Part shown: piece by piece, positions 1 through 48,736 of the stretch
How positions within the stretch are numbered: position 1 is the stretch's first letter
How the letters are laid out: every line of letters begins with the position of its first letter
Source of the DNA: Topomyia yanbarensis
Lineage: Eukaryota > Arthropoda > Insecta > Diptera > Culicidae
Direction of reading: 5' to 3'
Length of the DNA: 64,000 nt
Assembly (NCBI RefSeq): GCF_030247195.1
Contig: NC_080671.1
Coordinates: 14,644,843-14,708,842 of the forward strand
Made by a program: the position numbers and the translations under genes
Notes under the pieces: generated by a model
What the model was told of the DNA's origin: nothing
Databases searched by the model: none
What the model saw: the letters and a program-made list of their open reading frames with translations, nothing else

Positions 1-2847
1 TGCGACTACCAAAAAAAGTAAATTATAATCGAACACGTGACGAAAACACTTTGCCTGCTTTATGTTTACACTTAGAGGGTAGTAAGATTTACAATGTGAC
101 CATAACTGAAAGTTGCTAAATAATATAGTGCAAAGTGTACTCCAGAAAGCGCCCGATAAATGTTTCAATTACTATTCCAACGAGGTGCCCATACACACTA
201 CGCTCGTTATTGTTAAGCCCTGCCAACTGTGGGAAACTCTTTTCCTGAGTGGTCAACAACAGATGGCACTTACCGAACTTCTCCCATCTCACAGCTCCCA
301 TACGTCGAGAAGGGGGAGGCTGATGAACATTTAATATTAAATTATGTTGATCAACCCGAAAGTCGTGAATAGAAAGACGAAGTATGTATGTGCAAAAAGC
401 ACATTTATGGTTGCCATCCAATTTTAATTAAAAGCAAACAAACTACATGCTACATACGTTCCGACTCACTTGGCAGAGTGTTTGTCGTTCGGCGTACAGT
501 TTTTGTGTTCCAGCTCAGCATCGACATAGTGCTTAGCGCAGCAGCCGACGACAACAGTCACTTTTACGATGGTCCAACTTGGATGTGCTGGCAAGATTGA
601 ACATGTGTGTGTGCCGGTCGGTTGTGGTGTAGCAATATAAACTTGAACCAATTACAAACGTGCTGGGTGGAGTTCATCAGCCCCCCACCATCCCCGATCG
701 GAACAGAGAGGAGCTGTAGGACACTTTGAATGAACAGCTGTCTGAAGCAGCTCTCAATATGTTTCCCTTTCGGAAAACTTGAGAGTTAATTTAATTTCAT
801 CTTTTCTATAGTACTTAGGCGTAAGCCAACTATCTACCTGGTACCTGCCAATTTAGTTTGCAAGCTCAGTTTGAGGACAGTGGAAATTGCTATTCATAAA
901 TATTCTTTTGTGTTGATAAAGTTCATATCAAATCAAGTAATACCTATCTCCTGGTTGTTAGTGTTCCTATATGCGAAGAAAATTTGGTTTGGGGCAATTT
1001 GCAATTTAAGTGTTTTGGGTTTTCTTTTGGATATATGGTCATTGAGTTTTGTTTCGGGAGAGGCTTTAAAATATTATTGCATAAAGCTTTTAATTCTGAT
1101 GCGTTGATATAGTCACTAGAAATTAAATGAAATTTTAAAAAGCTCTTAATGAAAACAATTCATAATCTCAGACAATCCTAAAAACATGTTCTTTGTCACA
1201 AGAAAGTTACAATTTATTTTCGTTACAACAATTGATATTCTAGAGTTCACAGTATTTATACCCTTCGGAATATGACAATCCTTGTCGGTGCTGGAAAACG
1301 CACGGTGTTCTAAGCTACACGTTCAAAAGTTGTAGAAGACGTTGAATCGGAATGAGTAGAAAAATATCCATAACATTTTCGAGCGAAGAGAATGTCGAAA
1401 TTTACATAAAATCTTTTGATTTAGCAAGCGATTTGTAGATGCGCAGAAACGGTTCAACTTTTATTTTCTTGATCTGGCTACTATTACCAGTTGCTCACAC
1501 ATTTTTTTGTATATTCTATTTAAATGAAACCATTTTCAAGACTGGCTTTGGCCTGGAAGATCAGAGCCCCAGTTAGGAATGATTTTTGGTGATCAACAGG
1601 GTCAAAATATATATTTCAATGATTTAATCAACTAAAGGAAATTGATCAGAATTTAATCTATTAAAGAAAATTGTCCACACATCGATTGAAGAACACTTAA
1701 CACTGATTACTAATGTATTCTAATTTACGTAGAATTGTTTAAATGTATCAATAACCACCAAAATAACTAGAAATCAATATGAACAAGCTAAAAAACTTCA
1801 GCATCTCTTGATTCCGACGCATGGAATGGAATACATTGCACTTACTTCCCCTTTGCCAAAGAATAACGTAGATGTAAAGGCAACTTTCTATGATGATTTC
1901 GGTTTCACTTTCTAGGTCAATTCGTCACTTCGTTAAACAAATATATTGACGCGAATTTGTTCAACAATTGGTTTGTTTTTTTAATAAAAATAATTCGCTC
2001 AATTTTTTTTCCGCAATTACCACAAAAATTGGAAGATGTTGAACTACTGGAACAAAGCTGTAATGTCTATTTTATCACAAGGTCATTTTACCACAATTTA
2101 AGAAATAGTTTCAATTGAATCTGTTACACCTAACGTATCGAAGTCTTACGGATAACGAAGACGTAAGGGTCTTTCGAAGATGATAAGATCAGAGCGCAAT
2201 TCCGAAAGCACTCGAGTTGAGTGTATGGAAAATATAGAAGAGAACATTTCAATTTATTGATTCATTTTTCGCTCTGTTTCTCTGTGTTCTCTGATCATCT
2301 CTCTCATTTTATTCCATAACGAACAGAAATGAAACGAATGATTATCACATACTGAAAACATGAAATCGAAACAATAATCCCAACTTATTGAATTATAGAC
2401 TCAACTTGTTACAACATTTTAATCGCTCTCCTTTATAACCTACTGATATCTGTCGACTTCTTCAATGGTGGTGCTGACTGCTGGTTTTGAGATACTAGAC
2501 GCAGCTTTTACCGTCAATATTATCTGAACAGCAGCCACAAATTTGGCAATTGTTTGTTTTTCAGGTAATGGTATTGGAGAATATGGACGTGCGAAAATGT
2601 ACTGTGTCTAATTGCTTATCTAATCATTATGCTTTGTATGTAAAGGATCAGCTAGGGTGGGTCGGTCCACTTAGATTCTCGCCGCAAATACACCATTTAA
2701 TATATGTGGAATTACTTCCTAGATGTGTCTTTTATAATAACTTCCATTTCTTGCAAATGTGACAGGAACCTTTTAATGGCCACAGTGGTAAGTAGTATCA
2801 GATCCTGTAGCCGAACATTGATTTTCTCATCGTGCATATATATGAGG
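1..2847. other. Non-coding stretch, no feature recognised
   Basis: I see no gene, long inverted repeat, microsatellite or transposon end here. The short reading frames are AT-biased and match no family I know. Old decayed repeats cannot be excluded by eye. Confidence 0.5.
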
Positions 2848-3213
2848 ATCTACCACGTTAACAAAAGCACTGTTTTGAGCGTCTTAGTGGTATGTTATAT
2901 TAAACACTTTCACCGTTGTCTTCCGTTTTAATTCCACTATGATGAACAAAATGCAAAATGGCACTTTTCTGTTATAGATACGTATTTCGGCTACGACTTC
3001 CTGCCTTCTTCAGTGTATTGTATCAGAATGTTCTGATATTCTGATAGAATAGAATATTCTGATAGATCAGAATATTCTGATACAATACACTGAAGAAGGC
3101 TACAAGTCGTAGCCGAAATACGTATCTGTAACAGAAAAGTGCCATTTTGCATTTCGTTCATCATAGTGGAATTAAAACGGAAGACAACGGTAAAAGTGTT
3201 TAATCTACCACGT
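2848..3213. mobile_element. Foldback element with 11-bp flanking direct repeat
   Basis: A long inverted repeat has arms of about 145-150 bp at roughly 2899-3050 and 3060-3204. Both arms begin ATTAAACAC at the outer edge. The sequence ATCTACCACGT occurs at 2848-2858 and 3203-3213, so an 11-bp direct repeat encloses a 40-nt leader plus the hairpin. That arrangement suggests a target-site duplication around a leader-plus-hairpin insertion. Each arm carries a hammerhead-ribozyme-like core, antisense on the left and sense on the right. No protein is encoded. The leader resembles the one of the foldback at 60950-61229, so the two are probably one family. A link to Penelope-like elements, which carry hammerhead motifs and short tails, is inference. 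Confidence 0.65.
3090..3126 (+). ncRNA. Hammerhead-ribozyme-like core
   Basis: The core reads CTGAAGA (CUGANGA consensus) at 3090-3096. A stem II follows with GGCTAC pairing to GTAGCC over a five-base loop, then GAAA at 3115-3118, then TAC-GTA-TC. The short self-complementary TACGTA followed by UC matches the minimal stem III and cleavage triplet of dimer-type hammerheads known from Penelope-like retroelements. The same core lies antisense at about 2977-3013 in the left arm, where stem II is partly broken. I see no complete stem I plus stem III combination within one copy, so self-cleavage would need a tandem or dimeric transcript. Confidence 0.4.
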
Positions 3214-3760
3214 GTTACAAGTTGTTATGCAAAATAACAAGTTTCTCCTGGGCTAATTTGTTGAATGTTGAATGACATCAGCCTGACATGATAGAGCTCG
3301 TTGAAGTCGAAGTTCGTAAGCATGACCTCCATTTTCACCTTCAGCAAATATTTCACATCTCGAGCATTCGGTGTTATGTGAAAAGACTGGAAGTCAATAG
3401 CCTCCAAATTTGACTGTGCTTCAGCGATTCAATCATCCGATAGATCACCACAGCAAGAATTAAAGTAAGTTTTTTTGTTCTTCCGCGAGTCACAAAAAAT
3501 AAAAGGAACTGTTTTATCACACTCAGCATACTTAGTAGATATGGTGACCGCTGTCTTCAGTGTGTCGAAATAGCAACCTTCCTCACCATTCTCGTATTAA
3601 TTTGTTGAAATTAATCAAGTTACAAATTTTTTAAGAGCCACCGAAAAACCCGTTGTTTCTTACATTTATTTTTGAAAAATTTCGGTGAGGCTGTAGCTCC
3701 ATAGCACTCCTCTGGCTACGTGCCTACACAGTTCCCTTATTCAATTTCGCTTCGTTCGTT
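3214..3760. other. Non-coding stretch, no feature recognised
   Basis: I see no gene or element ends. The short frames have no recognisable domain. Confidence 0.4.
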
Positions 3761-5065
3761 CAGATTCCATTAAAAAAGATTACAATTTCGTGAACTGAAC
3801 GATTTATGAAAACCGTGATCAAGTTTCTGAAATTATGAATAATAAACCTCGTATTCATGAAACTATTTGTGTTCACCCCGAATATAAACGTGACGTTATA
3901 TCCAAATGTTTGGTTGGGTTACTGTTGTTGTTCACTGGACATGTTTAGGTTTTGTTATGATTCCGGCTCATAATTTTATTCGCGATTTTTGGGATTTCTC
4001 ATCACGTCACCGTGCTATTTTATTCGTGAGTTTTCTATCGGATTTTTCTGTCAGACTACCGGTATTTGTGTTCATGGTTTCAGGATCATAGTCGCAATTT
4101 TTGTAATTTCAATCCCCGTCATTGTGACATTTTAGTCATAAGTAGAGTGAGTCATGTTCGTGATTTGTGTAATGTGATTTATATTCATGATTTCTGGAAC
4201 TTCGTCATGATGTTCATAATTTTTATTCACGTTGTCGTGATATTTTAGTCAGGAGTTGAGATTGTCGCTTATTTATTTTCATGATTTCAGAATGGTAGTC
4301 ACGATTTTTGATATTTTTTCACGAGTTGTATGAATTAAGTTCATGATTTCAGGATCTCAGTTACGATTTTCGTAATTTCTGGTCATATTTTCGTGATGTT
4401 TTAATCTAGAGTTTTACTTTCGAATTTGACACGTGGAGGAATGTGACTCATATTCATGATATCAGCAGTTTTATCATGGTATTCATAATTTCACTCCGTC
4501 TTACCGCGACCAGTATTTTTGGGTTAAAATCGGTTTTTTTACTCGGAGTAACGTGGAAAAATGAACTTAATCAAAAAAATGTGACTGATTCGCGGTATCT
4601 TGTTCTGTGAACTATATCACGAGCACGATTTGTGGTGCTCACCGTAGTTTTCGTTTTCTGTTCAGACATCACACTGAACCTTATCAAATTAATAACGATG
4701 GAGGTCCCAAATAGTTTTGTTATACGTGCCCGTACCTATTACTGGTCGCTAATAGCTGAACATTTCACGAAAACAAGCATGGAACAAAAATGATGTCACG
4801 AATACTACCACTTTACGAATCCATAAATAATTATAATATTTCATGATTTTGTGAACTATTTCACGACCACGGATATTGAATTATGACTAATACATTAGAT
4901 CACGAGGATTGAATGGATTCATACATAAAATCCGAGTTTCGTGAAATAGTTTTGATTATGTGCACTAATGTTCCTAAATCTATGAATAACATCATGAGTC
5001 AACCTTTGGTTTTATGAATAAAGTTCATAAAGTTATGAACTAGTTCACGTAGAGAAAATCGATTT
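3760..5065. repeat. AT-rich dispersed repeat with recurring motifs
   Basis: Variants of CATGATTTCAG followed by CACGATTTTTG recur at irregular spacings of roughly 60-115 bp between about 4070 and 4500. The flanks carry inverted-looking pieces about reflected or clamped hydroxyl-free motifs such as GTGAACTATTTCACGA. The left part (about 3795-3870, with AATAATAAACCTCGTATTC) recurs in inverted orientation at about 63545-63620, which shows a dispersed family. The copy is too diverged to define termini or a target duplication. No coding capacity is visible. Confidence 0.45.
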
Positions 5066-5297
5066 GATAATAACATAGCGGAAACCATTTATAAAAGCGT
5101 TATGCGGGCACTACTGAAGGGAAACTGAATTGTTTTCGTAATTGCGCCTTTTTCATTTATCCAAACTATGATTCATTAGCTGGTTCTGTTCAATAGAATT
5201 GTGGAAATGTCTATTAAATTCTTATTTCACTTAGCACCTATCCTACGACTACCATGAAAGTAAACGCAGACTCACTTTAAACAAAAACGTATAGGGA

Positions 5298-5821
5298 AGA
5301 CCGGGGAGAGTTTGCGATGTTTTCAGTTTCCCTTTTTTACCGCTTTGTTGTAGGTAGATCTTGCAAAATAGAATATGTCGCTGTTGCCAACATCTGTTGC
5401 ATTATCTTTGTTTTTGTAGACAAAAATGTGTGACGCGGTAAACCCGCCAATGTACCCCTGCCCCGGGGTATATTGGCGGTATGTATGAATACGCCAGAAA
5501 ATGGAGATTAAATTACATCAAATCAAATCAATCAAGGTTCGTGCTGAAAGCCTTTTCAATAAAATTGTATATTAACTGACAATTGCCAATATATTTCAAT
5601 CTCAATACCCCGGCATTTTACGTTTTACGCGTATACCATATTCAAAAGTATATTTTCGAAATTCTTCAGGCGATTGGCCGAAGTAAATATCCCCTGCATT
5701 GACGAGATACACAAAGTTTTACTTTGGAGTGAATTACAAAAATAAAAATATTTGATGACTACATTTGCACTGTAAATAGTAGCCCCAACTTGCCTTGCGT
5801 GCGTCACCGCCAACTTACCCC
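5298..5821. mobile_element. Probable MITE with GGGG-type ends
   Basis: The left edge reads GGGGAGAGTTTGCGATG and the reverse complement of the right edge reads GGGGTAAGTTGGCGGTG, so the two ends look like diverged terminal inverted repeats. A near-perfect 36-bp palindrome lies inside at 5444-5479 (CCGCCAATGTACCCC and its complement). No clear target-site duplication was found and there is no coding capacity. The superfamily is not assignable by eye. Confidence 0.35.
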
Positions 5822-6600
5822 AACAGCAATTTTACAAAAAACTATTTAAAACATTACTTTAATTTATGGATAGATTTAATACCTATATGGATACTGAAAG
5901 CTCGTTAAATAGATTTTAAATAGCCCTAAATAACACAGTGTTTAAAATTTAAAAAAAATACTTGGTATGCTCGAAAACACAATATAGGCCACAACTTCAA
6001 CAAAAAAAATGTTTTTTAACAAAAACACATTGGATAATGGGTTTTACTTAACTTGAGGTACATAATGATAGGCAGCGCCATATGTCTAATAGAAACGAAG
6101 ACAAAGGGATTCCGCTAACTAGCCCCGGGCTCCCCTAATATTTAATTAACTTAATCAGCATGAACTCGATGCTATTTTCATTATATTTTGTTTTGAAAAT
6201 GTTGGTGGAATGGGTTTGGAAGTGGAGGGGGGAGGGGGTGGGTTAGTAGAGTGGAAGTGGAGGATGCGCCAGAAATCCTTCATCTTTTTTCGGTATACGG
6301 GGTGGATGAAGGAAATGCGGATGTGAGGGTGGCCCAAGGGGAGAGGAGTGACGAAGGAGGGAGGGGTGAGAGCAAGGGTTGGGGGGAGGTGTTGAGTTGC
6401 GACGCAATACTCAACCGCAAATGTTGCCTTTCATTTGAGACTTGGTTTGAGAACATGGGTTCGGTCATCACAGAAGAACCGATTTGACTTAAATTGTGGG
6501 ACTTCCGGAATCGTCGATAGTGGATAATATATCCAAAGAATGTTTGATTGGCAATTAGTGATCTAGATGTGCGAATCGAAGTAATTTGGTGACCATTTCA
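5822..6600. other. Non-coding stretch with a purine-rich patch
   Basis: A strongly G-rich plus strand at about 6205-6400 (runs such as GGAGGGGGGAGGGGG) is the only notable composition feature. The reading frames over it are low-complexity and are probably not genes. Confidence 0.4.
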
Positions 6601-7310
6601 ATTATTACGATTGTACCCATTTATATGGTAAAGTCCAGTGCAACCTTACTAACCAACCTGTAACTCCGGAACCAAGAGTTTGAACCGAATGAAATTTAGC
6701 AGCAGTCAATAGCATTGCTGCTTCTTTCATTTGAAATCAAGTTTTGAATTTGAAATTTGTAAAAATCGGAAGAGAATTCGCTGGGAAATGGGTGTGATAT
6801 TACTTAGGAACTAGGCGAGTTCTACGGAGGCATCATGAACCGTCATAGGTGGCCAATGTGGCCAAAGCTGCTTTGATTGATCATTAGTGATCCAGACCCG
6901 CAGACTAGAGTAAAGCTGAATCCATTTTAATATGTTTTACGTCATTTGGGAATTATGGTTGTACCAGTTTATATTGGAATTTGCTGTGTGACCGAACTCT
7001 TCAACCAGTAACTCCGGAACCGGAAGTCGGATCAACTAAAAATTCAATAGTAGCTTATGGGAGCGTTATACCTGTCAGATGAAACTAAGTTTGTGAAAAT
7101 CGGTTCAGCCATCTCTGAGAAAATTGTGTGAGTTTAAATGACACGCGCACACATACACACACGCACATACACACATACATACACACAGACATTTTTCGAT
7201 CTCGACGAACTGAATCGAATGTTATATGACACTCGGGTCTCCGGGCTTAAGTTGAAAAGTCGATTTTTTTCAGTGATTACATAGCCTTTCTTTATATAAG
7301 AAAGGCAAAA
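6600..7310 (+). repeat. CA-microsatellite-bearing dispersed repeat, two partial units
   Basis: Two diverged units are arranged head to tail, both containing GTAACTCCGGAACC. The second ends with an AC/TAC microsatellite at about 7141-7192, then CGATCTCGACGAACTGAATCG and a terminal AAGAAAGGCAAAACG. Related pieces occur at 25330-25535 and around 43730-43865 and 48063-48930, where they host two younger insertions. The family has no ORF. I associate it with mosquito genomes, but the class (SINE-like or MITE-like) is uncertain. The stretch at about 6940-6975 is the best uninterrupted homologue of the RAG1-like transposon's target site. Confidence 0.6.
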
Positions 7311-11820: not shown

Positions 11821-14800
11821 CTAATTACATTTCAGAATACGCATTATTTTAGTTTTTATCGAATTCCTTGTCAGGTTGAAGTCAAACGCCGTCGCCACAC
11901 TGTTAAACACACGCTGGAGTCCGGTAACAGCGCTCTGGCGCCCATAGTTAGTTCTCCTGAACGGGATTAGCAGAAGCGAGTTATTGCGCAGAGCTCGAAC
12001 GTGAGCTTGAAGATCGAGGCGTCCGAGGATTGTAGGGCAATCCACCCGGGCAGACAGTAAGTCCAAACAGGGCTCGAGAGCAGTCCCTCCGGATGCTTAG
12101 AGTATCGAGCTGTATTAACTGACAACGGTTTTCGTAGCTTGGCAGCTGAAATCTGTTTTGCCAAGGAAGATGTCGAAGTGCAAACAGTGTTCTGGTAGGT
12201 AAGGGTTCCAAACAGCAGAACAATATTCCAGTGTTGAGCGAACCAGAGATTTAGAGAGATTTTAAAAAGTATACGTCCTTAAAGTTTTTCGCTATTCAGA
12301 AGATGAACCCAAGCTGTCTTGAAGCCTTATCCACAATGGATGATGTATGTGGTTTGAACATTAGTGCCGAATCCATGATGACTCCGAGATCCTTGACGTT
12401 AGAGTGTCTTGGAATACTCGAGTCGAAGAGGTGGTAGTTAAACTGAATCGTTTTCGCGTGAACGTAACGATTGAGCATTTGCTCGGGTTTAAAACCATTC
12501 TGTCGAAACATTTTCATGTCATCGGCAAAAGAATGGCGGGGTCCTTGTAATTTGATGTTGACGTCATTAAAGTAGAGGAGGAATATCACTGGACCGAGAT
12601 GGCTTCCTTGTGGGATGCCGGATGTAGCGAAGAATGGTGCAGATAGACAATCCTTAATGCTGATTTGGAGTTGCCTTCCATCGAAGTAGGAACGAAACCA
12701 GCGCAGTAGTTGTCCATGAATACCGAGTTTGTCCAGCTTCGCTATTGCGATATCATGATTGATTTTGTCGAAGGCCGCAGATAAATCCATGTAAATAGCA
12801 TCGGTTTGCAATCCGTCAGCGAATCCATCCATTACATATGTTGTGAATGAGAGCAGGTTTGTCGTTGTCGATCGTTTAGGTATGAAACCGTGTTGGTCAT
12901 CTGCAATGTAGTGTTTGCAGTGAAAGAAAATAGGATCTAACACAACGAGCTCGAACAGTTTTGATACAGTACTTACACACGAGATTCCCCGATAATTGTC
13001 AATGTTCGATTTGTTTCCTTTTTTGTGAACTGGAAACATGTGCGCTGCTTTCCAGCAGGAAGGGAATGTTCCAGTATTGAGTGATAGCACAAAGACTCGC
13101 CGAAGTGGTTCAAGAAGCCCGCTGATGCACTTTATGACAAAAATCGAGGGAACGCCATCTGGGTCCGGGGAACTAGATGCTTTCAGCTTGGAATTTGCTG
13201 CAAGAATGGCATCATTATCGACACAAATTCGATTGATGGTTCGTCCTAGAGAAGGAGTTAGATTTGAAGCGGCAGTGACTTGTTGTGGGGAAAGTTTCTC
13301 GTCGGAAAAAACGCTTGAAAATTTGTCGGAAAACAATTGGCAAATTTCCTTAGGGTCGGTCCATTTAATGACATACAAGATGGTAACCCGGATTCTTTTC
13401 GCTGCTCGTTCACATATTTGGATTTCAGTTGACGTTCGACGTTTTGCTGGTATCTAAAAAAGGCTGCTTTGCTGTTTGTATTCGTGGTTGAGTTGAAAGT
13501 AGTGGTTTCGTAATGCAAGTGTCTTATGCTTCGAGAACTTTTTAAATGCGGCTCGTTTGGCAGTTTTTAATCGTCTAAGCACTGTTGATTGCCAGGGTTG
13601 TTGATTAGTGCTGACTGTTCGTTTTGGCACATGAAGGTCGATTAGGTAGTTAAGAATATTAGAAAACGTCATCGCTGTTTCGTTCGCATCATCATTGTTA
13701 AGATTTTCGTCCCAGTTTATATCCAACAGCGTGCTAACGATGCTGTCGTAGTCAGCGTTTTTAAAATCGTAGACGATAGAGCTTGAGACGTCTTCGAAAT
13801 TCACTCCTAGGTTACCAGCGAGTACAAGATGTAGTGGGGGATGATGGCGCACAGGTTGGACTAAAGGTGTCGGAGTGGCGCAGCAGTACGGAGCGTAGTC
13901 CCGGGCACTTACAAAGCAGAGGTCCAATGTACGTCCATTCTCGTTGATAATATTATTAATTTGCCGAAGAGTTGCGCTACTGTAGTTGTCCAAGATACAA
14001 CTGGCATTGTTGATAAGCGCAGACTTTTCGATATCCAATCGTAGAAATCCATTACTTGCCGGGCACCAGGTCAAGCCAGGTAAGTTGAAGTCGCCCAGTA
14101 TAACAATATCATCAGACGGGGCAGCGATCGAGGTGATGAAAGAAACGGAGGAAAGATGTACATCGATCAGGCTGTAATCACGAATTCGGTCAGGTGGAAA
14201 ATACACGACACACAGGAAGAGATTGCGATCGGCAAGTTTCACTGATATCCACACTTGCTCGGAGCTCGCCCACCGCTCATCGTTGATCACTCTGACTTTT
14301 ATACCATGGCGAACGTCGATGAGTACACCATCTCCTGATGTCTTGTGGCTGTTGAGGGCATTGCGATCACAGCGGAAAACATCAAATGTTGAGCCAAACA
14401 CCTGGCGAGGCAGAGTACGGTTGTCGAGCCACGTCTCGGTTAAGCGAGCAAATAGCTGTGCGTTGATGAATTTAAGCCACCAACATTCTGGTAGTAAATC
14501 TCGATGTTATTGGATGACGGATCAGGTTCTGCAGAGAGCGAATCAACTGCATCGCGTCCCAGAATGTGGCGATCATCATCGGCGAGAGAAATGGTTGACA
14601 TCTGGTCACAAGATGTTAGAACAAAAGGCAAATTACTGGAAGCGAAGAATACATCAGCGCTTGAAGTGTTCGGATCAGATGTATACTTGCCATTTGTGGC
14701 GGGCTGGAAGACCCTTTCACCCATCCCACACACAGGACCGGGACGACTGATGATCGCTGGCTGCAATTGCTCGACTGTGGCGGGGGGATTGAGGGCTTCC

Positions 14801-20262: not shown

Positions 20263-21579
20263 TTAATTCTGTCCATAATCAGTACTTTGATAGTCAAGTC
20301 TTAAAAAATTCCACGATCTTATACTTCTAGCGGGCACATTTACATTAATCTGAGAAAGTATATTTGGGGCATCTATTTCACCAGTTAGAACTTTCCCTAC
20401 AAACACGGCTCTGAATATATTTCGCCTTTTTGAAAGAGGGTCCATGTCGAGCAGACGACAGCGTTCAATGTAAGGTGGCAACTCTATCGGGTTGCGCCAT
20501 GGCAGGGTTTTAAGGGCATATCGGAGAAACCTAGCTTGTATAGATTCAATTCTGGTAATCCAGACATTTGTGTACGGGCACCAAATGATAGCTGAAGCTT
20601 CCAGGATGCCCAAGTAGCACGCTTTGTTACTGTATAGTATTTGTAACTCTCTTGGTAACAACTATGTTATGGAAAAAGCGCACTTTGTTTGTATGTTGTG
20701 CAACATGTTCCTAATTGCAGCAAAATAATGAAAACAACAGCTGTGCCATTTGTCGAGCACTGGGTAGTCGGACAGTTCTGTTTTAGGGTGGAATGGCAAA
20801 GAAAGAGGCATTTGCAACTTGATAGACTGTTTGTGCAAGTTAGCAAAGTTTCTGATTAGTTTCACAACTGTTATTGATGTTTGCATACTTAACACTATTG
20901 GTCAGCTCTATAGTTACATGGTTGCACAATCTGTTTAAAAACCCGTGGAAATTCTTTTCAAATATATCCAACAATAAAAGATATTGTGTAGCAGTTGTGT
21001 AACATTTAAAACTTTCAACAAGTTGCAATTGCTACTTGGGTGGAGCGTACAAGAGAGAAGTACAGTGCTCTCAGACAGTATGGGTCAGTAAACTCTTTGG
21101 CTATTCTAATGATAAAACCAAGGTTCCGGTTGGCTTTCGCAATGATGTGGGAATAGTGATCTCTAAACGTCAATTTAGAATCCAGCTGTACACCAACGTC
21201 CCTGACAACTGACACTCTATCCAGTAGTTTCCCTGCGATAGTATAACACCACAAAATTGGATTTTTTCTGCGCGTGAAAGAAATTACTGAGCATTTGGAT
21301 ACACTGATAGTCAACCGATTTCGAGTGCACCAGTTACAAAATTCATCTAGTTGTCGCTGTAGTTCAATGCAGTCCAATTCAGATCGTACAATAAAAAACA
21401 GTTTAAGGTCATCTGCATAGATAAGTTTGCATCCTGGTGGAAGGACATTACAAACGTCATTGAAGAACAAGGAGAACAGCAAGGGTCCAAGATTACTGCC
21501 CTGGGGCACACCTGATAAGTTTATAAAGTTATGTGATTCAACATTTCCTAGTTTGACAGATAAGGTACGGCCTACATAT
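20263..21579 (-). pseudogene. CR1 reverse transcriptase, C-terminal part, interrupted
   Basis: The upstream piece (21041-21579) shows SGVPQGSNLGPLLFS, the catalytic IYADDLKLF and VRDVGVQLDSKLTF, which are palm and thumb blocks of a CR1 reverse transcriptase. The downstream piece (20263-20608) begins ILEASAIIWCPY and holds LPWRNPIELPPYIERCRLL and the ordinary C-terminal region. The MITE sits between LVRS and ILEAS. The N-terminal half, including the endonuclease, is absent. The frame is otherwise open, so this copy is less decayed than the one at 11.8-16.4 kb, although it is not functional. Confidence 0.85.
20609..21040. mobile_element. MITE inserted in CR1 reverse transcriptase
   Basis: The left end reads CCCAAGTAGCACGC and the reverse complement of the right end reads CCCAAGTAGCAATTGC. 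The element is 432 bp with no coding capacity. The host reading frame, with a reverse transcriptase motif across the gap, gives the empty site. After removing one TG copy the frame restores LVRSILEAS, so the duplication is probably 2 bp (TG). Confidence 0.7.
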
Positions 21580-21850
21580 GACGAATTTCGCGCCAACTCG
21601 AACAAATGTTGGCAGCATTCTCTCCGATTTTAATGAAACTTTTTGTGCGTGAGAACTTTGTCACAAAAAGCCACTTTGCATACTTTGTTTTTCCAAAAAT
21701 GATCTAGACTGGCTTTTGAAAAGGGTCAAAAATGACAAATCCGAAAAAAAGGTTGTAGGAATGATTTTCACAAAATTAGTCAATTTTTTGAATGAAAATA
21801 TTGGATAAATTCTTCAACGATTTACAAAAAAACCCTAGCTTTGATATGGA
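21580..21850 (+). repeat. Dispersed repeat E, partial copy
   Basis: It begins ACGAATTTCGCGCCAACTCG and continues with GGCAGCATTCTCTCCGA and CTTTGTCACAAAAAGCCAC. The same sequence appears at 60106 (plus) and 30508 (minus), which defines a shared terminus. The copy is truncated on its right side. The longer copies contain a decayed coding stretch, so it is probably a fragment of a once autonomous element. Confidence 0.6.
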
Positions 21851-42359: not shown

Positions 42360-42552
42360 TATTGCTTTTAATGTGAAGATTTGTGTGTACTAGGACTTAA
42401 GATGAATTGTAGTTATAATTATGGTATGTGTTTCTGATTTTAAAAGATGGTGGTTTTTGCACCCGTCTGAGAATGGTATGAAAGGTATCCAACTCAGTTG
42501 GGCTTTTTCCTATCCTGACTGTCCATGTAGACTCTAAAGTCCGATGGACATA

Positions 42553-42679
<127 letters not shown>

Positions 42680-42847
42680 TGTGGATTATTGCAATTGCAT
42701 GGTCGCGTTTGTGGCCAGGTTTGTGTTATCGCGAAGGCCACGAGCGGTTGTACCTATATGAGTATAGATAGCGTATAGTAGAGATATACTAATAAAAGGA
42801 ATCAAAACATGCCGAATAAATAAAAAAAGATGCAAAGAGCTTGATTA

Positions 42848-43729: not shown

Positions 43730-43865
43730 CTCGTGCTTGTATGGACTAACAGACCGTCGCAGGTGGCCAATTTAGTCAAAACGGCTTTGGTTAGTTAGTG
43801 TTGATCTAGACTGATGCAATTTTGCACTCATTTTTATAAGTTTTGCATAAATTTGATATAACAGT

Positions 43866-44764
43866 CACAGTGGTCCAGATCGCTAATTTAGGAGGAATTT
43901 TTACTTTCTGACAAACCTGTATAATTTAGCCGTATCATGTCTTAGGATGAATTTGTGTACTTTAGAAGATGCTTCTTTTTATTGGAATAGTTATTAGGGT
44001 GGTTCTAATTTATCTAAAATACGAAAATAAACTTTTTACTGATGAAAGATAGAGCTCCACAGTCTTCCACAAAGTTGTAAAGTAACTTATTTTGAATAAA
44101 TTTGTTGAACATATTAAAGCTCTATCTCTTTTAGTTTTTGTTATACAAGAAATTTAAAAAAAAGATTAGGGTGTTCCTGAAAAAACGTTTTTTTAGTATA
44201 ACTTTCGTATCTTTTACTTTTTGTTAACACAACCTTTGAACAGCTTATTGAAAACTTCAAGCCGAGTATTTTTCTCCAAGACACCGAAGGTCTAACTTTT
44301 TTCTTTAAAAAGTTATGGACACTTTTCGTTAAAAAAATAGCCTATTTCAAGGCTCAATATCGCTGATGCGGGCACCTAAAATTGAATTCTGTTTCCACCA
44401 CATGAAAGACCATACTTATTAGTATATTTGAGCAAAAATTGGCGAATACGATATTTTTTTAAAATTTGCAATTTAGATTTAAAGTTTGTAGTTTTGCAGG
44501 TTCAACGCATTAAAGCATTTACACACATATCGTTGTATTATGAAAAAAGCCACTTTCAAATATCATTCTCTCATCGCAGCAAGCTTTGCATAAGTGAAAC
44601 GACTGTCAAAAAAGGTTTCTGATTTTATTCGTTTTAAATAAAACTAGTAAATATGGATATTAGTCGAAGAGAGTTGGCGAATTTGCTTATTGCTGGTAAA
44701 AAGACAGATGAACTGCTTAAGTTCATTACAAGTAGTAATCCAAATGTAAAATTGAGACTTGTTA
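43866..44764 (+). repeat. Left terminal inverted repeat
   Basis: About 899 bp, matching 47162-48062 in inverse orientation with almost no differences in the parts I compared. It contains the CACAGTG end, the whole 5' flank of the gene and the first 37 codons of the transposase. An RSS-like spacing is present: heptamer, 23 bp, then AATTTTTAC, an AT-rich stretch rather than a true nonamer. Confidence 0.9.
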
Positions 44765-46709
44765 GTGCTCGGAAGAAAATAAAAATCTTCATGTTGGAAT
44801 TTAGAAGGTTGTGGATTCGGAGTAAGCGCACGCAAATTCGGTTTGAGCTGGAAAATTTTGTGTGGCTTGAAGGAAAGCTAAGATTCGAAGTCGAAGGTAA
44901 AGGTAAAGGCCGAAAGAGGAAACCATTTTCCGAAATATGTCGCAGAGCCAAAATAAAAAGATTAGGAAAGTTGCGCGATAAGTATTCCACGGAAGAACTT
45001 GGTTTAGCGTCAGCCGTCAACGCTAATTCTACTGGTTTCCGTTTAGTTGGCAGACAAATCGAACGATTGTCGAAAAGTCCCGTCAGATCTACCGTAGAGA
45101 ATTTAGGATCTATGGCTGTCCCGATTGCAGAAGCGTTTACTGCGGAGGAGGCACTTAGATTTATTTGTGAAAATGATTTTTCTAAGGCGCAGTACCAAAA
45201 CATACGCAGCTCAGTTATGCAGAAGGGTTTGGACATTTATCCCGCGTATAATAAAATAGTAGAAGAAAAGAAACTATGCTATCCGATCGGTATGTACTAT
45301 TCTCAAAGATTCGTCCCTGAATCAACAATTTTTTTCAGGAATTTCTGTTCAGCCTTCTTGTGCGTATGTTCCCCTTCAAGCTCTTGTTAACCATACCGTG
45401 GAACGACTCATCTCGTTTCTGAATATTGGAGTTCTACCACTGCATCCTGAGGATAATACGTTTGTTATCTTTAAGTGGGGCTGCGATGGAAGCAGCAACC
45501 ATTCCCGGTAGGCAACATTATTTTTCTTCTAAACTTTGACTGACAGTCTCTTTTCCACTTGAACATAGATACAAGCAAATGTGCGTTGACGAAGATGAAA
45601 ATGGAGAACTATTCGAGTATAACGATTCGCATATATTTGCTCTATCTATAGTACCTTTACGTGTAGTTAGTCGCCGGAAAGATGAGTCAAGAGATTGCAT
45701 TCTTTGGAATAATGATTTTCCATCTTCAGTATCCCTGTGCCGACCAGTAAAATTAATTTTCAAGAAGGAAAATCCTGAACTAACAAAGGATGAAGTTGCC
45801 GCGATGAACAAGCAAATCGATGAATTAGTCCCGACTATAGTAAATGTTAATATGCGCAAGATTCCGATTAGTTCAAGCTTCATATTTTCCATGGTTGATA
45901 CGAAGGTAGTGAATGACGTAACAGGCACACCGTCTCAAGCGTGTTATATATGCAAACGCTCCGGAAAGCGATTGAATGATCCTTTACTGGAAGCCAGCGA
46001 TCCACCGGATAGTTTATATGTTTTTTCACCTTTACATGCATTAATACGAGCAATGGAGTTACTATTGAATATTGCTTACCGTTTAGCTCTAGCAAAACCG
46101 CGTTGGCGCGTAGGCAAAAACACCAGCGAGCTTAAGGAACGACAAATAAAAATTCGACAAGCGTTACGTGACCGTTTAGGTCTTCGTATTAGCGAACCTT
46201 TGCCAGGTGGCGGAAATTCTAACGATGGTAACACAGCTCGAAAAATTTTCAGAAACCGAGATGTCGTTGCAGAAGAAACCGGGTTGGACGAAATGTTGCT
46301 AGAACGCATGTATGTGCTATTAACAATCATCAACAGCAAATTGGGAATTAACGCGGATGCTTACCGGAGTTACGCCGAAGATACACGATTGCTTTATGTA
46401 CGCCTGTATGGTTGGTACGCTCTCTCACCAACCGTGCATAAACTCCTGGTCCATGGAGGAAGCATTATTCAACATAACATGCTGCCAGTAGGTATGTGCA
46501 GTGAAGAAGTTCAAGAAACCAGGAATAAAAGTATTCGCAGATTCCGAGAATTCCACGCACGCAAACTCGATCGACTCGTCAATCTTGATGACGTTTTCAA
46601 GAGACTTCTTGTTTCATCAGATCCTATAATTTCTCTTAAATGTAAACGTCGAATTCAACGAGCACCGCTGGATATACCTGAAAATGCAATGCATCTACTT
46701 TTTAATTAA
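44653..46709 (+). CDS. RAG1-core-like DDE transposase, 648 residues, two introns
   Basis: The gene should cut and join the element's ends. Coding exons are 44653-45289, 45339-45507 and 45569-46709, with introns GTATGT...TTTCAG (49 bp) and GTAGGC...CATAG (61 bp). The three exons total 1947 bp with no stop. In the alignable core, GCDGSS holds D262, MVDTKVVNDVTG holds D379 (RAG1: YDEKLVREVEG), and SEEVQETRNKSIRRFRE holds E581 (RAG1: SEGNESGNKLFRRFRK). CYIC (C394, C397) and HKLLVH (H559, H564) match the zinc-binding CxxC and HxxxxH of RAG1. NDGNTARKIF resembles NGNFARKLM. Residues 1-200 are basic and without a recognised domain. The start lies inside the left inverted repeat. No partner gene such as RAG2 is seen. 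It is apparently intact, and activity is not shown. Confidence 0.9.
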
Positions 46710-46719
46710 TTGGCATTGA

Positions 46720-46725
46720 ATAAAT
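46720..46725 (+). promoter_or_regulatory. Polyadenylation signal of the transposase gene
   Basis: AATAAA begins 11 bases after the stop codon. It is the canonical hexamer at a typical close distance in a compact element. Confidence 0.6.
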
Positions 46726-46854
46726 TCTCCTTATATAAATCATAAATTGTTGTCATAGCCAAATTATTTTTAATGAACACATTCTGTATTGTTGATATGT
46801 AAGCAAAACAGAAAAGGAAATACAAAGGCTTTAGGCAATTTCTTTTATGTCGCT

Positions 46855-47161
46855 ATGCGATAAAATTTAAAACTTTGGTTAGTAAATTTAAAATTACATG
46901 CTTAAAAAAAATAATATTTTCCAATTTTTGCTCAAATATACTTAAAAGTATGTTCTTTTCTATGGTTCAATCCGAACTTACTTTTATTTGCCCCAATCAG
47001 AGATAATGACATTTGAAAAAGGGCTATTTATGAGCGAAAAGTTTCCATAACTTTTGAAAGTATAAAGTTAGACTTTCAGAGTTATGAAAAAACGTGGATT
47101 GAAGTTTTCTAAAAGCTGTTCAAAGGTTGTTTTAACAAAATATAAAATTTCTTTCGAACAT
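46855..47161 (-). repeat. Decayed inner inverted arm
   Basis: The reverse complement of this stretch contains GTTAAAACAACCTTTGAACA, AAAGTTATGGAAACTTTTCG and GTATATTTGAGCAAAAATTGG. It is a diverged copy of the left arm's interior (about 44215-44500). It lies between the stop codon and the fresh right arm, so the right side carries two arm copies, one old and one new. Confidence 0.75.
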
Positions 47162-48062
47162 TAACAAGTCTCAATTTTACATTTGGATTACTACTTGTAA
47201 TGAACTTAAGCAGTTCATCTGTCTTTTTACCAGCAATAAGCAAATTCGCCAACTCTCTTCGACTAATATCCATATTTACTAGTTTTATTTAAAACGAATA
47301 AAATCAGAAACCTTTTTTGACAGTCGTTTCACTTATGCAAAGCTTGCTGCGATGAGAGAATGATATTTGAAAGTGGCTTTTTTCATAATACAACGATATG
47401 TGTGTAAATGCTTTAATGCGTTGAACCTGCAAAACTACAAACTTTAAATCTAAATTGCAAATTTTAAAAAAATATCGTATTCGCCAATTTTTGCTCAAAT
47501 ATACTAATAAGTATGGTCTTTCATGTGGTGGAAACAGAATTCAATTTTAGGTGCCCGCATCAGCGATATTGAGCCTTGAAATAGGCTATTTTTTTAACGA
47601 AAAGTGTCCATAACTTTTTAAAGAAAAAAGTTAGACCTTCGGTGTCTTGGAGAAAAATACTCGGCTTGAAGTTTTCAATAAGCTGTTCAAAGGTTGTGTT
47701 AACAAAAAGTAAAAGATACGAAAGTTATACTAAAAAAACGTTTTTTTCAGGAACACCCTAATCTTTTTTTTTAAATTTCTTGTATAACAAAAACTAAAAG
47801 AGATAGAGCTTTAATATGTTCAACAAATTTATTCAAAATAAGTTACTTTACAACTTTGTGGAAGACTGTGGAGCTCTATCTTTCATCAGTAAAAAGTTTA
47901 TTTTCGTATTTTAGATAAATTAGAACCACCCTAATAACTATTCCAATAAAAAGAAGCATCTTCTAAAGTACACAAATTCATCCTAAGACATGATACGGCT
48001 AAATTATACAGGTTTGTCAGAAAGTAAAAATTCCTCCTAAATTAGCGATCTGGACCACTGTG
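47162..48062 (-). repeat. Right terminal inverted repeat
   Basis: About 901 bp, the inverse of the left repeat and ending CACTGTG. It carries an antisense copy of the transposase 5' flank and start codons. Confidence 0.9.
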
Positions 48063-48165
48063 CAGTGGTATCAATTTATATGGAAAATGGCTGTGCTGTG
48101 GCACTCTTCAAATCGTAACTCCGAAACCAGAACTCCAATTATCAAAAAAATCAAAAGTGGCGAAG

Positions 48166-48736
48166 CACAGTGTTCTAAAACGTCATTTTCGTGCTCAAAA
48201 TTAATAGCGTCTACCCCGTTAACTTTAGGAGTATAGTTTGTTCGGAGATGTTAATTACGAGAGAAACTTGGTGTCTTCGGCAAAGTTGTAGAAAATTTCA
48301 CTACAAAAGAAATTGCTGAAGACACCATATTTCTAACTTTAATAGTTTTCGAGTTATGAAACATGTTATATGGAAGACCCCATATTAGTTTTTCAAGATA
48401 ACTTCTTTAGTAATTCGCCTACGTTCTTGGAACCATCCACAAAGTTGTTTACAATATCCAATCACATATTTTTGCGGATCAAAGTAACTTCCTATCTGTT
48501 ATATTGAAAAAGATACTCCAAATTTTGCAATATTTTAGGGTAACTTCTACCTTAAATAACCCGTTAAGGAGCAAACAATGATAAGATACTGAAAGTACTA
48601 GCTTTTTACGTTCATATAGTGGTTGATTTGTTTGCGACTCGTTCTCCCCGAGTGTTATGTTCAAAACAAAATCCCATCGCAGTGGTATAGACGCTATTAA
48701 TTTTGAGCACGAAAACAACGTTTTAAAACACTGTGT
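48166..48736. mobile_element. 571-bp MITE with CACAGTG ends
   Basis: The left end reads CACAGTGTTCTAAAACGTC and the reverse complement of the right reads CACAGTGTTTTAAAACGTTG. The inverted repeats continue for about 50 bp, through CTCAAAATTAATAGCGTC. It lies inside the CA-microsatellite repeat. No clean duplication was found. It shares only the heptamer with the RAG1-like transposon 103 bp upstream, so a mobilising relationship is a possibility, not a finding. The short frame at 48479-48805 is not credible coding. Confidence 0.75.

Follow-up and report, generated by a model that had tools for sequence, protein, structure and literature searches.

The core of RAG1 has an apparent counterpart in a mosquito genome, and the locus that holds it raises the question of whether this gene belongs to a mobile element, of which family, and in what state. 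The gene lies in a stretch of 64,000 nucleotides of Topomyia yanbarensis DNA (NC_080671.1, positions 14,644,843 to 14,708,842 of the forward strand), which we call the window and in whose coordinates all features are given. A sequence-only reading had described the gene as an apparently intact RAG1-core-like transposase of Transib or Chapaev type. Our analysis indicates that it very probably sits in a complete Transib cut-and-paste transposon, probably autonomous or autonomous until very recently, the right arm of which was replaced in the master copy.

Gene model, residues and relatives of the transposase

The features of the gene are as follows.

44653..45289, + strand: transposase exon 1, N-terminal extension, with a GRPxK-type, nonamer-binding-like region near residues 88-105 (suggestive)
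45290..45338, + strand: intron 1, 49 bp, GT-AG
45339..45507, + strand: transposase exon 2, holding catalytic D262
45508..45568, + strand: intron 2, 61 bp, GT-AG
45569..46709, + strand: transposase exon 3 and stop, with D379, CxxC 394/397, HxxxxH 559/564 and predicted catalytic E585
46719..46724, + strand: AATAAA just 3' of the stop, a likely polyadenylation signal judged by position and motif

Removal of the two canonical introns yielded 648 residues followed by the terminal stop, the only combination of the tested GT/AG pairs that kept the frame open throughout, which confirmed the exons and GT-AG introns of the earlier model. The splice dinucleotides of both introns were conserved in 24 of 24 full-size copies of the element. 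In an alignment of 42 rows that includes the window protein (A1), the column of D262 held D in 38 rows and a gap in the other 4, that of D379 held D in 41, C394 and C397 were invariant (42/42), and H559 and H564 were found in 37 and 38 rows, respectively. All six of these residues had been named from the sequence, and all were present; the glutamate of the proposed triad (D262, D379, E581) was misplaced. D262, D379 and E585 aligned at a constant offset of 17 with D126, D225 and E436, the catalytic residues of HzTransib as numbered in the available text of PMC6941560, and E581 as the partner of E436 would need an offset of 21. Since E581 is conserved too (38/42 rows of A1), a slip of four residues is understandable. 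In the RAG1 alignment, E585 (QETRNK) stood opposite the E of NESGNK, which we take to be E962 of RAG1. The predicted third catalytic acid is E585, not E581.

The likeness of the N-terminal region to a nonamer-binding domain is only suggestive. A RAG1 piece aligned with this region at 9.3 bits, a score exceeded by one of 2000 shuffles (12.0). Its composition calls for further caution, since designed helical proteins (Syn-F4, E=3.3e-4) were among the profile matches of the N-terminal part. Transibs with a GRP-type NBD have already been reported (PMC9435367).

Residues 161-626 of the transposase matched the solved HzTransib chain at E=4.8e-81 (276 bits). The direct match to RAG1 was weak, with 21.3 bits at best (E=8.8e-4), and that to amphioxus RAG1L reached about 11 bits. 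Profile matches to RAG1 and Transib, which the sequence-only reading had left to database searches, were obtained: the Pfam RAG1 family PF12940 matched the window protein at E=4.5e-6 (25.5 bits, just above the cut-off of 25) and 20 of the 42 rows of A1 (E up to 0.001), and a profile built from A1 scored 634 bits against HzTransib over positions 160-648, 62 bits against amphioxus RAG1L and 36-45 bits against RAG1 chains. The description as a RAG1-core-like transposase thus stood, as did its setting in an insect-type genome.

Among 7996 candidates scored, 41 were database homologs of the transposase, the closest named ones being from mosquitoes: AAEL003578 of Aedes aegypti (55% identity over 64% of the query) and A0A1S4KHE3 of Culex quinquefasciatus (58% identity over 41% of the query), which covers only part of the transposase. 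AAEL003578 carries Out-at-first domains and therefore looks like a fused gene model. In a tree of the 34 of 43 rows that were at least 470 aa long, AAEL003578 grouped with the window protein (support 97/86) on a long branch, and the rows nearest to the window protein by path length were P0001 and P0002. Many relatives (P0008, P0013, P0014 and others) are labelled PF26100 in precomputed Pfam annotation, a family that our own Pfam scan of the same relatives did not return. By homology, the predicted product of the window gene is a Transib transposase, and the element to which we assign it is a new family of the known Transib superfamily, which may already be catalogued in Repbase.

Ends, arms and target sites

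Beyond the gene, we mapped the following features.

43861..43865, no strand: left target-site duplication, reading ACAGT, apparently CAGTG minus its last G
43866..44778, + strand: left terminal inverted repeat, about 913 bp, starting CACAGTGGTCCAGATC; upstream region and first 42 codons
46883..47147, - strand: older right-arm remnant, sharing about 77% identity with 44212-44481 in the left-arm interior
47109..47273, - strand: putative 54-codon open frame, an inverted transposase start running into older arm sequence
47148..48062, - strand: right terminal inverted repeat, a near-identical left-end copy in place of the outer portion of the older right arm
48063..48067, no strand: right target-site duplication CAGTG, in the right flank

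The complete element occupies 43866-48062 (4,197 bp) and reads CACAGTGGTCC at both tips; the span 44653..46709 proposed from the sequence covers its coding part. The left and right arms were 99.45% identical over 915 columns, with 3 mismatches and 2 one-base gaps. The start codon lies at left-arm position 788, so that the upstream region and codons 1-42 of the gene are present in each arm. The inverted left-end copy on the right adjoins the roughly 77% identical remnant of an older arm, which indicates that the outer right arm was replaced. The same right-arm structure was found in 20 of 20 first-batch copies, interrupted by inserted DNA in L019 and L028. We regard the long, gene-overlapping and apparently homogenised arms as the unusual part of the element. 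In the accessible portions of the open-licence literature we found no report of a Transib with "long terminal inverted repeats", yet HzTransib is described with "long TIRs" in PMC1852546.

CACAGTG stood at both ends of all 20 copies shown. This tip is not new as such, since heptamers identical to those of RAG are reported for some Transib ends in the available text of PMC6941560. An RSS-like nonamer was absent at 12 or 23 bp from the heptamer; the best forward match was 6/9 at a spacing of 36, and a score of at least 6 was reached by 668 of 2000 shuffles, so that it was not above chance.

Equal 5-bp duplications flanked 18 of 20 first-batch copies, the window copy being one of the 20, and read CANTG in 14 of the 18; L025, whose left end lies beyond its stretch, was left out of this count. 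The two exceptions were L009 and the window copy itself, which has aaCAGT on the left and CAGTG on the right, a match of 4 bp, and whose duplication has likely lost one base. All nine further full-size copies and both shorter ones had 5-bp duplications, L031, L034 and L038 being uncounted because their stretches contain no right end. We also searched for ends with a non-T base ten bases out, of which there were 633; among the first 100 listed, all on one contig, 5 bp were shared by each of the 37 end pairs and 6 bp by none, and the target was CANTG in 50 of 63 elements, two of which look like a segmental duplicate. Chapaev (CMC) elements duplicate 4 bp of target. A Chapaev assignment was hinted at by the window copy alone and was overturned by the 5 bp of the other copies, so that of the two types offered by the sequence-only reading, Transib was retained and Chapaev dropped.

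A palindromic insertion target was considered for the window copy and rejected, as the inverted likeness of its flanks over about 25 bp scored 12 against a control maximum of 14. When 20 copies were tested in this way, L009 (60 against 9) and L022 (16 against 11) exceeded their control maxima, so the family may still have some preference for palindromic targets. L009 (G000:C3:303306935-303314435, element at 2804-7001) lacks a target duplication, and its flanks are inverted repeats of each other over 170 bp at 97.6% identity; possible explanations are insertion into a palindrome that was already there, a product of repair, or an error of assembly.

The 5-bp duplication and CAC heptamer also occur in RAGL elements (available text of PMC7204232) and would suit an element of RAGL/ProtoRAG type with a RAG1-like and a RAG2-like gene. 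The HzTransib score, however, is far above those for RAG1 and amphioxus RAG1L, and the element has no forward ORF of at least 160 aa besides the transposase, a search that a gene split into small exons would escape. We give a RAGL-type element virtually no weight, and the lack of a RAG2-like partner claimed from the sequence held within the limit of that ORF search.

Other repeats lie in the window. An inverted repeat pair (48166-48213 and 48688-48735, 94% complementary) directly beside the element is possibly a small non-autonomous repeat, and a long AATA tandem repeat (42552-42680) is located upstream of the element. Window positions 12296-14506 and 21015-21629 (- strand) contain pieces of non-LTR retrotransposons with a reverse transcriptase (PF00078), the endonuclease-like region of which scores below its Pfam cut-off.

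Copies, age and probable exchange between the arms

We searched the assembly (1.168 Gb in 1044 contigs) for further copies. The exact 30-bp end occurred 757 times (376 forward, 381 reverse) and its reversed-pattern control not at all, which corresponds to roughly 375 copies. With a left-end query of 924 bp we obtained 1275 candidates; 40 of these were scored, and every one of the 40 was full length at 99-100% identity. We fetched 34 of the 39 scored places besides the window; these copies lie on three contigs of 218, 470 and 429 Mb. Twenty-four copies were of full size, namely 15 from the first batch (4100-4300 bp, including the window copy) and 9 from the second (>3900 bp). Their mean pairwise difference was 0.41%, and 19 of them, the window copy included, kept the frame, splice sites and key residues. 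Together, this low divergence and the proportion of intact frames point to a recent burst. Changes among the 19 intact copies comprised 45 nonsynonymous and 14 synonymous ones (p=0.77), and fit neutral decay, as expected after a burst. The first 100 ends listed gave 45 paired elements, with 10 ends left unpaired; 16 of the 45 measured 4150-4250 bp and the rest were shorter or longer. Shorter copies recurred at about 2752-2754, 3168-3169 and 3445-3446 bp, which suggests mobilised non-autonomous deletion derivatives.

A RAG1-like gene domesticated by the host would also show an intact frame with conserved catalytic residues. It would not account for the terminal repeats, the 5-bp duplications, the hundreds of exact ends or the neutral pattern of changes between copies, and we consider domestication to have a negligible chance of being correct.

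The state of the window copy is a separate matter. The description "intact" was right for the frame and key residues, but the window copy has I495 where F is found in 37 of 42 rows of A1 and in 19 of 19 other readable copies, and L602 is likewise private to it. These two private residues make its own activity uncertain. Three of the 19 intact copies encode exactly the majority protein of that set; the window copy does not. That the window copy is a dead member whose frame survives only by its youth is a serious possibility, if the less probable one, given that all seven catalytic and zinc residues and both ends are intact.

Left and right arms were compared in 29 copies, L019, L025, L028, L031, L034 and L038 having been dropped because one of their arms was interrupted or lay beyond the stretch. 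Fixed differences between the arms occurred only at positions 900, 903 and 907 (29/29 copies). At arm positions 1-899 we counted 122 copy-instances of minority bases, 8 of them in both arms of one copy. When right arms were shuffled among copies in 20,000 trials, which allow only partly for subfamily descent, both-arm instances averaged 1.3 and numbered 7 at most; two of the 8 observed (position 289) adjoin a poly-A indel, where misalignment may have produced them, and the shuffles included both. Four of the clearest both-arm bases (positions 73, 94, 176 and 240) are each restricted to one copy; the fifth, at position 245 of L036, is confined to the left arm in eight other copies. Such shared minority bases suggest arm-to-arm gene conversion.

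Alternatively, the long arms of the same Transib element might stem from one duplication with little later exchange, their identity reflecting youth alone; at a mean difference of 0.41%, near-identical arms are expected after a single recent duplication. Against this, all three fixed differences fall within the final 14 of the 913 arm positions and none within the first 899, and the both-arm bases just described occur in single copies. We therefore hold a single duplication without much exchange to be unlikely, and favour replacement of the right arm followed by continued exchange.

Proposed mechanism and known parallels

In the transposition cycle that we propose, the 648-aa transposase would bind the CACAGTG-tipped ends and nick at the 5' edge of the heptamer, giving hairpins on the flanks and blunt transposon ends, and insertion would follow with a 5-bp stagger at CANTG-like sites. 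The hairpin chemistry is carried over from HzTransib and RAG; hairpin-forming cut-and-paste activity is reported for HzTransib in the available text of PMC6941560. The family would have multiplied recently from a master copy in which an inverted left end, with codons 1-42, had already taken the place of the right arm from an internal junction outward. This replacement may have originated in the repair of a broken right end for which the left end, from the same copy or a sister copy, served as template, and the same kind of arm-to-arm repair would still keep the arms alike. The repair route and any present activity of the element are proposals. A more speculative reading is that the second, inward-facing transposase start in the right arm, with its upstream region, gives antisense RNA or a 54-aa N-terminal peptide directed against the element's own transposase, so that the chimeric end would be a built-in brake or a trigger of small-RNA silencing and not a passive repair scar; we think this very unlikely.

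With many near-identical full-size copies, hundreds of exact ends, clear termini and a sharp target motif, the family lends itself well to biochemical work alongside HzTransib and could be used to compare how RAG-like enzymes choose ends and targets. Its gene-overlapping, apparently homogenised arms may offer a natural example of how repair between arms shapes the ends of a transposon.

HzTransib of Helicoverpa zea (PDB 6PQN and related entries) is homologous to the window protein, with 186 of 463 aligned residues identical and the same D, D, E and zinc residues; the window protein extends about 150 residues further at its N terminus than the chain that it matched. As far as the accessible part of PMC1852546 describes it, HzTransib shares the 5-bp target duplication and the long TIRs, whereas its duplication is GCTCG and that of the window family mostly CANTG. 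Vertebrate RAG1 and RAGL (ProtoRAG) have in common with the window element a DDE core, zinc-binding C2/H2 residues, a CAC-type heptamer and a 5-bp duplication (available text of PMC7204232); they differ from it in that no RAG2-like gene was seen here among ORFs of at least 160 aa and that the similarity to RAG1 is weak (21 bits).

For long TIRs that exchange sequence, a known parallel is Galileo of Drosophila, an element of the P-element superfamily and thus of a different superfamily from Transib. In the portion of PMC3573991 available, its TIRs are about 300 bp to 1.2 kb long, recruit internal sequence and exchange between copies. The longest TIRs of D. mojavensis Galileo are described there from copies without a transposase ORF, whereas in the window family the gene-overlapping arm is present in full-length copies.
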